Assembly: GCA_016872495.1 (NCBI GenBank) | Contig: VGZT01000026.1 | Location: 1 to 32,890, forward strand | Length of the DNA stretch: 32,890 nt | Reading direction: 5' to 3' | Source: SAR202 cluster bacterium | GTDB lineage: Bacteria; Chloroflexota; Dehalococcoidia; Lucifugimonadales; Lucifugimonadaceae | Shown here: one piece after another, positions 17,354 to 28,063 of the stretch | How the letters are laid out: each line of letters opens with the position of its first letter | How positions within the stretch are numbered: the first letter of the stretch is position 1 | Position numbers and translations under genes: made by a program | Notes under the pieces: generated by a model | The model's input: the letters and a program-made list of their open reading frames with translations, nothing else | What the model was told of the DNA's origin: nothing | The model's database searches: none

Positions 17354-18781
<1,428 letters not shown>

Positions 18782-21233: not shown

Positions 21234-23321
21234 TCAAATACGGCCACCTCTTATTCGATCTGCCTGGCTCTCCAACTGGGCACGCAACGCTTCCGGCTCG
21301 TTCACCGGTAGCTGGCAAACGGAGTTCTCACACACGTAGGCGGCCGGTCGCCCGCCGATCCTCGTTCGGCCCGTCAGCAGTGGCAGCCGATGCGTCGCGG
21401 CATCGTCCGGCGAGCCCGCAAGCACCGACGTGGGGTGGTACCCGCGACGGTAGACCGCCAGCAGATCGAGCGTGCGCCGGTCTTGTTGATCGCCGATTAC
21501 GACCATTTCCCGGGAGGGCGAGGTGTAGAGGTCGAGGGCGGCCAGCCAGTGCCCCATGCCGGCCGGGGCACGCGCCACGAAGTCACGCACCGACCGCAAC
21601 GACTTTGCGGCATAGCCTTCCAGTTCAGAACGGCCGGTCAACCTCGCAAGCCGAATCAGTGCAACCGCGGCAGCCGAACCACCGCACGGCGTCGCGTTGT
21701 CGAAGATGTCGCGCGGCCTGACCACCAGGCGCTCATGATCCGAGCCGGTGTCGAAGAAGACCTGATCCTCGGAAGACCAGAAAAGTCCAAGCATGCCTTC
21801 AGCCAGCTTCTCCGCCTCGATCAGCCACCGCTCCTCGAAGGTCGCCTCGAACAGCGCCGTCAGAGCGTCGACCAGGTACGCGTAGTCTTCCAGGTAGGCG
21901 TTGAGGCGAGCAGTCCCCGCGCCATGCGCGTCGGCCTTCCAGGTGCGCAGGAGCCGGCCGTCCCGCACGAGCTCGGAAAGCAGGAATCCGCCGTTCTTTT
22001 TTGCTATGTGAAGGTAATGAGGGTTCTCAAGTGCTGCGCCGGCCTCGGCGAACGCCCTGAGGACGAGTGCGTTCCACGCCGTGAGCACCTTGTCGTCGCG
22101 CAAGGGCTTGACCCGTTTCGAGCGCTCGGCGAGCAGCAGTGAGCGGGCCCGGTCGATGGCCGCCGCCAGGTCCGAGGCCGGCATGCCGAGCTCCGCTGCC
22201 GCTTCTTCGGCCGGGCGGGGTACCGAAAGGATATTGCGTCCTTCGAAGTTCCCGTCGTCCGTGATGTCCCAGTAAACGCGCGCGATCCTGGACAGTTCCG
22301 GCCCCAGGATCCGGTCGATTTCGGACGCCCACCATACGAAGTACCGCCCCTCTTCGCCCTCGGAGTCGGCGTCCTGTGCGGAGTAGAAACCGCCACGCGG
22401 GGAGAGCATCTCGCGCTCAAGGTAGGCGAGGATCTCGTCGACGACCCGCCGGTACACAGGACGGCCAGTCGCCTGGAAGGCGTGCAGATAGAGCTGCGCG
22501 AGCAGGCCATTGTCATAGAGCATCTTCTCGAAATGAGGCACCAGCCACGCCCCATCGGTCGAATACCGGTGAAAGCCACCGCCCAGCTGGTCGTACATGC
22601 CGCCCGCGGCCATCTTTTCGAGGGTCAGCTCGGCCATCGTCAGGGCGTGCTCATTCCCGGCGCCCCGCCAGTGTCGTAACAGGAACTCGTAGGTCATCGG
22701 CTGTGGGAACTTGGGTGCAGTCCCGAACCCGCCGAGCCGGGGATCGAAGTCGCGGGCAAGGACACGGAACGCTTCCGAGAGCGTGTCACGAGAGAGCGGG
22801 GCGTCGCTCCCGCGGGCGCTGACCTGCTGCGCGATCTGGCCGAGCAGCTGGCCGGTGCCGGCGAGTATCTCTTCGCGCCTTTCCCGGTAGGCTTCTGCGA
22901 CCGCGCTGAGGACGCGCTTGAAGCTCGGACGTCCGTGCACATCCTCGGGCGGGAAGTAGGTCCCCGCGTAGAAGGGCCGGCCGTCGGGCGTGAGGAAGAC
23001 CGACATCGGCCAGCCGCCCTGACCGGAAATGAGCTGCGTCGCGGTCATGTAGATCGAGTCGAGGTCGGGGCGCTCTTCACGGTCGACCTTGATGCTCACG
23101 AAGTTCTCGTTCATGAGACGGGCCGTCGCCTCATCCTCGAACGACTCATGCTCCATCACGTGGCACCAGTGACAGGCGGAGTATCCGATGCTCAGGAAGA
23201 TCGGACGATCCTCGGCGCGCGCCTTCTCAAGCGCCTCAGCGCCCCAGGGGTACCAGTCGACCGGATTGTCCCTGTGCTGGAGGAGATAGGGGCTGGTTTC
23301 GCCCGCCAGTCTGTTCGGCAC
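21234..23321 (-). CDS. Thioredoxin-domain protein, DUF255/YyaL (spermatogenesis-associated 20-like)
   Basis: This 695-residue protein begins [26 protein letters not shown], the hallmark opening of the DUF255/YyaL family. A thioredoxin-like domain carries the redox pair C50-H-W-C53, followed by a long (alpha/alpha)6-barrel-like region resembling glycosidase or epimerase barrels. The cellular role is unknown; a redox or disaccharide-related function has been suggested for the family. I use the GTG at 23319-23321, which gives the conserved N-terminus and has AAAGGG about 11 bases ahead; a TTG at 23351 is the longer alternative. It is divergent from the SLC13-type transporter. In this gene both redox positions are encoded by ordinary cysteine codons. 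Confidence 0.93.
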
Positions 23322-23357
23322 TGTGTCCGCACCCTTTCTTAAGCAGTTCAACTAGCG

Positions 23358-26560: not shown

Positions 26561-28063
26561 TCAGGGCAGGACTTCGAGCGTCCTGACGCGGTAGGAGGGC
26601 GAAAGAAGGTCTATGACCCTGATGCGATGGTTGTTCGTATCGACCACGTACAGCTGATCGCCCAGGATCGCCAGGCCGGCAGGTTCGTCGAAACTGGCGG
26701 TCGTACCCGCGCCGTCGTCGGCGCCTGCCTTGCCCGACCCGGCGATCGTCCTGACCTGGAGATCCGGGGTAGTGAGCCTCTTGATCTTGTGGTTGTAAGT
26801 GTCTGCGATGTAGACAGAGGTCGTTCCGCGTTCCTCGCGCAAGGCCAGGCCCTGGCAATGCTGCAGGACCGCCTTCCTGCCGGTGCCATCGCTGTCGCCG
26901 AAGTCAAACAAGCCGGTGCCCACGAGGGTGGTGACGGTCGCCCCGGGCCCGATGCCGGCGGTCCGGATTGCGCTTGTCTCACTGTCGGCGAAGTACACGA
27001 GACGCCCGTCGGTCTTGACCCCGTATGGCTGGGCACAGCGCGCCGCCGCAAGCGGACCGTCGATGATGTCCTCGCCTCCGTCGCCCGCGTAGGGGGCGAT
27101 CCGGCCCGAATCCAGGTCCATCGCCCAGAGTTGATGGAAGCCTGCCATGGCGATATAGAGCACTCCGTCATGCAGCGCGAGGTCGTACGGGGAGTTCAAC
27201 GGATTCTGCCTGGCATCGCCGCCCGCGTGCCGGTAGAGCGACTGCTCTCCCGTCCCGGCGATCGTACGCACCGACTTCTCCGCGAGGTCAACGATGCGTA
27301 TAGCGTGGTTCTCGGCGTCGGCAACGTAGATGCGATCGCCATCGATCGCCATCCCCTGCGGCTTGTTGAACGTGGCGTCGTGCAGGCTGCCGTCTGAGAA
27401 CCCGGGCTCGCCTGCGCCTACCGCCTCGATCACCCGGCCATCGATTCCAAGGACCAGGAGGCGATCGTGATTCGAGTCGGCGACTACCAGCCGGTTGCCG
27501 GCAGGGTCGGCCTCTATCTTGCCCGGGTAGGCGAGCGCTCGCGCGGCCTGGCGGTCCGCCTCGAGCTGGAATGGCAGGAGCTTGCGATCTATCTGCCCCA
27601 GCCGGTCGAACTCCCGGATCATGTCGCCGACCAGTTCATCGAACGGTTCCAGCTCGAACTCGCCCTCGTGCTTCCCGATGACCTTGCCCTGCGGGTCGAT
27701 GAACATCAGCGTGGGCCATGCCCGGACGGCGTAGCTCCGCCAGACGGTGAAGTCGCGATCGTTCACGACGGGGTGCTCGATGCCGTAGCGCACCACGGCG
27801 TTGCGGATATTCGCAGTCTCCTTCTCGTTAGGGAACTTCGAGGAGTGAACGCCGACCACGACCAGTGAATCCCGGTATTTGCGTTCCAGCTTCCGCAACC
27901 GCGGAAGTATGTGCATGCAGTTGATTCAACAGTAGGTCCAGAAGTCGAAGATCAGCAGCTTGCCGCGCAGCGCCTCGAGGGAAAGTGGACGGTCGACGTT
28001 CAGCCACTCGAGATCGCGCGGAAACGCGGGAGCGTTCACCTTGCCGGCGTATTTGGTCGTCAT
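26561..28063 (-). CDS. Thioredoxin-like NHL-repeat protein, candidate selenoprotein (in-frame TGA at 27926-27928)
   Basis: Read from the ATG at 28061-28063 with TGA as selenocysteine, this is a 500-residue protein. A thioredoxin fold (1 to about 155) has FDFWTYC-U46-INC49, with U46 where the family has the nucleophilic Cys of CxxC, and a likely cis-Pro at P117 (RAWPT). About six NHL repeats (180-500; e.g. [32 protein letters not shown]) form a propeller. NHLRC2-like relatives have the same layout with a Cys-Cys-x-x-Cys motif. The uninterrupted frame begins at 27916 just after the motif, so automatic annotation would lose the first 49 residues, including the active site. A hairpin 18 bases past the TGA fits a bacterial SECIS. 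The alternative is a nonsense mutation, but both sides of the TGA are perfectly conserved in character. The S9 peptidase follows in the same transcript. Confidence 0.8.
27890..27907 (-). promoter_or_regulatory. Candidate bacterial SECIS hairpin inside the thioredoxin-NHL gene
   Basis: On the minus strand CTTCCGC-GGTT-GCGGAAG forms a perfect 7-bp stem with a GGUU loop. The stem starts 18 bases and the loop 25 bases after the in-frame TGA. The published bSECIS description asks for a stem of at least 4 bp, a G in the first two loop positions and about 16-37 bases between UGA and loop; all are met. A GGU in the loop is also present in E. coli fdhF. The hairpin encodes LPRLRK, so it is both coding and structural. 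Confidence 0.65.

Follow-up and report, generated by a model that had tools for sequence, protein, structure and literature searches.

Two proteins, NHLRC2 (essential in mice; mutated in FINCA disease) and SOQ1 (which controls photoprotection in plants), share an architecture in which a thioredoxin (Trx)-like domain is followed by a six-bladed NHL propeller. In the Trx paradigm the first position of the active site motif is the attacking nucleophile and the second Cys resolves. The chemistry of the NHLRC2/SOQ1 family is unsettled: human NHLRC2, in which the motif adjoins the propeller, was inactive in an insulin reduction assay, and the authors of that study questioned whether it carries out thiol-disulfide exchange (PMC6107167). 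Ordinary disulfide reduction may therefore not be its reaction, whereas SOQ1 reportedly hands reducing power on to its targets (PMC10173003). Trx-fold families in which selenocysteine (Sec, U) forms a UxxC motif are known (PMC13188914 Table 1; PMC2398784 Table 2). As judged by family names, the 119 prokaryotic selenoprotein families of a 2026 review include no NHL, NHLRC2 or SOQ1 entry (PMC13188914), and a search of the open literature found no Sec-containing NHLRC2, SOQ1 or NHL protein.

The window analyzed here is a 32,890-nucleotide stretch of DNA from a SAR202 cluster bacterium. On its minus strand, a frame is open from an ATG at 28063 to its terminal stop, and the sole interruption is an in-frame TGA that replaces the first Cys of a CxxC motif to give WTYC-U-INC (Table 1). 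The sequence-only reading described this frame as continuous and family-like around one TGA, and that is borne out by Pfam, where Thioredoxin_8 (residues 34-128) spans the TGA and NHL repeats lie behind it. It also predicted that standard gene calling would truncate the protein at 27916. Indeed, the table-11 ORF starts at the ATG at 27916, 3' of the TGA, so that the Trx active site is lost from the called gene. Since, in addition, all matches of NCBIfam models to the window protein fall below cut-off, automatic annotation of the Sec-type gene is likely to miss the Trx active site. The N-terminus of the Sec-type protein has no apparent signal peptide and a cytosolic role is therefore likely.

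Table 1. Positions of the Sec-type gene, its recoding elements and associated loci (window coordinates, or genome and contig).
Feature	Location	Strand	Basis
Sec-type NHLRC2/SOQ1 coding sequence, 500 residues, UGA read as Sec at residue 46	26561..28063	-	translation, Pfam, AlphaFold, Foldseek
In-frame TGA, predicted Sec codon, first residue of UxxC (C-U-I-N-C)	27926..27928	-	translation and alignment
Terminal stop, also TGA	26561..26563	-	translation
Predicted bSECIS, CTTCCGC-GGTT-GCGGAAG, 7 bp	27890..27907	-	folding, conservation, covariation
DUF255/Thioredox_DsbH (YyaL/SPATA20-like) gene, two genes between it and the Sec gene	21234..23351	-	domain annotation
DipZ-like TGA loci L146-L151	G066:C49, G003:C1, G011:C28, G029:C1, G020:C17, G082:C5		

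Profile, sequence and structure searches confirm the protein as NHLRC2-like, with thioredoxin and NHL domains. A profile built from 21 orthologues matched SOQ1 (7djj) with 548 bits and NHLRC2 (6gc1) with 497 bits over the whole length, while the single window protein gave 405 bits to SOQ1 and 370 bits to NHLRC2 (residues 9-488). The AlphaFold model (pLDDT 91.4) shows a Trx fold and a propeller, with the Trx-like domain at about residues 9-155 and the six-bladed NHL propeller at about 176-496, and the top PDB matches in Foldseek were NHLRC2 6gc1 (39% identity) and SOQ1 7djk (42%), with E about 1e-51. In the alignment, the TGA stands opposite the second Cys of CCINC, which is Cys-90 in human NHLRC2 (numbering from PMC6107167), and it thus falls, as first suspected, on the nucleophilic first Cys of CxxC. 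The family motif CC(I/V)NC is kept as C-U-I-N-C, and both C45 and the WP at residues 116-117 (the cis-Pro position) are invariant in the alignment.

Based on the gene, the Sec machinery, the SECIS element, the conservation and the fold, all established here by computation, we propose, with a probability of about 0.96, that this gene is the selenocysteine form of the NHLRC2/SOQ1 family, with Sec inserted at the UGA; its product would be a UxxC oxidoreductase. Against the proposal stands that MAG assemblies could mix strains. For selenium incorporation, redox activity, the direction of the reaction and the substrate, we infer the following hypothetical mechanism. SelB with Sec-tRNA(UCA) would bind the hairpin 25 nt downstream of the UGA at 27928, Sec would be inserted at residue 46 in place of termination, and translation would continue to the TGA at 26563. 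The first Trx helix would then carry the U46 selenolate at its N-terminus, turned towards the NHL propeller. The protein would work as a dithiol-type oxidoreductase of the UxxC kind, in which the selenolate is the nucleophile and attacks a disulfide or other oxidized sulfur of a partner that the propeller holds. By analogy with NHLRC2, the propeller probably holds the substrate. Resolution would be by C49, or possibly by the neighboring invariant C45, and C45 and U46 could form a vicinal selenenylsulfide. The exchange of Cys for Sec at this position favors a redox role for the NHLRC2/SOQ1 family in general. We consider it unlikely, although this is the strongest of the alternatives, that the protein contains Sec but that U46 binds a metal or other ligand in the Trx-propeller cleft with no thiol-disulfide exchange, as the insulin assay of human NHLRC2 and the doubts of its authors (PMC6107167) might suggest. 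U46 occupies the classical nucleophile position of the Trx fold and is followed by xxC, WP 116-117 is invariant, UxxC Trx-fold selenoproteins are generally taken as redox enzymes (PMC13188914), and SOQ1 reportedly supplies its targets with reducing power (PMC10173003).

A Sec codon calls for Sec machinery, the first check named in the sequence-only reading, and all of it is present in the source genome. This Chloroflexota MAG (2.34 Mb, 98% complete) encodes selA (535 bits), selB (344.9 bits) and selD (377 bits), each above the curated cut-off, and a tRNA-Sec with anticodon UCA on contig C67. Its selD itself carries an in-frame TGA in the context CAG-U-AGK, and UxxK is the known Sec site of selD (PMC13188914). 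This selD (L023, 1480-1560) is thus a predicted selenoprotein, with a different possible hairpin, AGCTCAG-CCAGA-CTGAGCT.

The second check concerned homologues, and here the residue proved to be Cys or Sec only. Full or near-full orthologues with exactly one in-frame TGA occur in 44 of 100 relatives, base-by-base reading of 29 TGA orthologues places it at the residue-46 codon in 29/29, and one of the 100 relatives, G090, has TGC at the Sec position. TGA stands at this codon in 46 of the 80 named loci and TGC/TGT in the other 34, which leaves no other codon. The TGA loci are labeled Chloroflexota (Dehalococcoidia, SAR202) in 45 of 46 cases, and the exception, one Sphaerobacteraceae MAG, is listed under Thermomicrobiota in the taxonomy used. 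Sphaerobacteraceae were long classed in Chloroflexi. The Sphaerobacteraceae copy (L095) is, on the tree, the most divergent of the Sec copies; its hairpin stem retains a pair swapped from G-C to C-G but has one C-A mismatch. Cys copies come from Acidobacteriota, Armatimonadota, Planctomycetota, Cyanobacteriota and others. The TGA motif was found in 52 of 400 genomes sampled phylum-wide from Chloroflexota, in many families, and a reversed control pattern in none of the 400; a scan of viral contigs found no Sec form, and plasmids gave only distant relatives. Sec forms may also occur in phyla other than Chloroflexota. Many Sec copies share only 55-60% protein identity and come from independent assemblies. 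When the trait columns were left out of tree building, the distribution of Sec and Cys required two changes, most simply a single gain of Sec on the way to Chloroflexota and a reversal in G090; the tree has no inferred root, and several of its deep forks are weak.

The Cys-bearing relative G090 (97% complete) has no selA, no tRNA-Sec and no selB above cut-off, the best selB match (188 bits) covering the GTPase part only, and in its copy of the gene (L046) the codon is TGC and the hairpin is destroyed. To judge from its genes, G090 is a natural Sec-to-Cys reversal accompanied by loss of selA, selB and tRNA-Sec, and such events are described as uncommon among bacteria (PMC13188914). Conversely, selA is present in 39 of the 44 UGA genomes, and the other five are MAGs of 61-88% completeness.

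The hairpin in the window has a GGUU loop that starts 25 nt past the UGA and a 7 bp stem (-11.5 kcal/mol), and the codons between the UGA and the stem are ATC AAC TGC ATG CAC ATA. It satisfies all constraints of the published bSECIS model, which are a loop of 3-9 nt, a stem of 4-16 bp, G in the first two loop positions, a UGA-to-loop distance of 16-37 nt and an MFE <= -7.5 (PMC13188914 Fig 2). As a single copy it is unremarkable, since 13 of the 868 TGAs in the window have an equally good hairpin (>= 7 Watson-Crick pairs) and its folding relative to shuffles is not significant (z -1.07), and its weight therefore comes from conservation. Elsewhere in the window, TGAs at 17768 (+), 32124 (-), 19209 (-) and 7970 (-) also have a SECIS-like hairpin and are flanked by long open stretches, but they have no redox-motif context and look like chance. 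Across 83 Sec copies, 98.3% of pair cells are paired, with double changes at four of the seven pairs. Shuffles average 92.6% and 0/1000 reach 98.3%, a slid partner gives at most 71%, and the Cys copies are 35.9% paired, with no signal. A separate count on 21 of the 83 Sec copies agrees with the covariation, and the hairpin columns are unaffected by the fact that rows L041 and L050 of alignment A2 begin one base early. In distant Chloroflexota the pairs swap jointly (TTG...CAA, TCG...CGA, GCG...CGC, TCC...GGG), even when the encoded residue changes, and the loop is AGUU in 82/83 Sec copies.

Codon usage within the stem points the same way. Leu is TTG in 66/66 copies compared with an expectation of 0.13 from usage in the same genes, Arg is CGG in 65/65 (expected 0.26) and Pro is CCG in 65/66 (expected 0.38), so that, on codon evidence, the wobble bases of the stem are frozen by the hairpin. 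The encoded segment is mostly PQLRKL in Sec copies and mostly PDLKK/RL in Cys copies, which fits a protein recoded to make room for the hairpin. The codon immediately 5' of the stem (27908-27910 in the window) is ATA or GTA in 38/66 Sec copies even though ATA makes up about 15% of the Ile codons of these genes, and the base preceding the stem may thus also be constrained. A covariance model of this SECIS searched in the source genome matched only the NHLRC2/SOQ1-type gene, and the hairpin is therefore family-specific at the sequence level and not common to selD.

These data also bear on whether the UGA might serve as a regulated stop or a leaky read-through site, the usual product being a 45-residue peptide or a protein starting at 27916, with little Sec. 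UGA termination competes with Sec insertion in bacteria, and the ATG used by the ORF callers lies just four codons past the TGA. We nevertheless give this reading very little weight, because the Met at 27916 is not conserved (it is Ala, Val or Leu in several Sec copies) and because the TGA/Cys exchange, the SECIS covariation and the co-loss with selA are jointly explained only by Sec insertion.

Two further explanations have a negligible probability. A TGA is one base from the TGC/TGT of the Cys homologues, as expected if a sequencing error or pseudogene mutation had hit the Cys codon, but this is refuted by the conserved TGA and hairpin. In the first set examined, all 66 distinct Sec copies have the TGA at exactly the residue-46 codon and zero further internal stops, a recurrence that is not chance and that upholds the earlier argument against a random nonsense mutation; none of the observations that the sequence-only reading named as refuting turned up. 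Differences from a same-genus relative lie mostly at third codon positions (11/18/53% over the three positions before the TGA and 24/16/57% after it), showing that both halves are under protein selection, which persists 3' of the TGA and, together with the recurrence in independent assemblies, excludes error or decay. A code in which the whole lineage reads UGA as an ordinary sense codon, such as Trp or Cys in the manner of code 4, would likewise leave the frame open but is refuted, since UGA terminates the window gene and 26/66 Sec orthologues, TGC/TGT encode Cys in the same motif, no homologue has Trp here, and a dedicated tRNA-Sec(UCA) is present with selA and selB.

The Sec form may have a partner nearby. 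Of the 44 Sec loci whose downstream sequence is long enough, 11 have a homologue of the DUF255/SPATA20-like gene directly downstream. None of the 33 Cys loci does, but these come from other phyla, so that the contrast is also one of lineage. This is an association only, but a functional link between the two genes, as a redox module with two Trx folds, is plausible.

The essence of our proposal is that Sec is found exactly at the second Cys of CCINC and so singles out the reactive nucleophile in this family. The selenoprotein reading of the original TGA, a candidate with a UxxC motif, is supported at the computational level by the Sec machinery, the Cys/Sec-only exchange and the covarying SECIS, and the hairpin sequence, the phylum-wide spread and the paired loss in the Cys-bearing relative go beyond it. 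We think it probable that these genes form a phylum-wide, undescribed Chloroflexota family in which Sec, standing where human NHLRC2 has Cys-90, points out the catalytic atom of the NHLRC2/SOQ1 family, and whose members are redox enzymes, possibly using a C45-U46 selenenylsulfide along with UxxC. The Sec form would provide a testable and probably more reactive bacterial version of NHLRC2/SOQ1, and it extends the list of common selenoproteins in uncultured Chloroflexota by one that ordinary annotation truncates. Marine reads assigned to Trx-like 1, Prx-like 3 and thiol-disulfide isomerase-like proteins (PMC2398784, PMC1088965) may include its Trx part unrecognized.

Compared with the described systems, the closest in structure is human NHLRC2 (6gc1), the best Foldseek match, which has the same two domains with CCINC in the cleft, but it is eukaryotic, has Cys at the Sec position and carries an additional C-terminal domain. 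The lumenal part of Arabidopsis SOQ1 (7djj, 7djk) has both domains in the same order and the motif WTYCCINCMHxLP, whereas SOQ1 has Cys at the Sec position and is membrane-bound in the thylakoid lumen, with further domains. The C-terminal domain of DipZ (2hyx) belongs to a related Trx subfamily with a CINC motif but lacks an NHL propeller and has S/T instead of Cys before CINC. Within that DipZ-like subfamily, some relatives carry FWTYT (FWTYG in G082) before TGA-xNC, and this also looks like a UxxC selenoprotein (Table 1). Finally, the bacterial UxxC Trx-fold selenoproteins (Trx-like, thiol-disulfide isomerase-like and redoxin), compared here by description, likewise have Sec first in CxxC and a bSECIS just downstream, but none is named or described with an NHL propeller or as NHLRC2/SOQ1.
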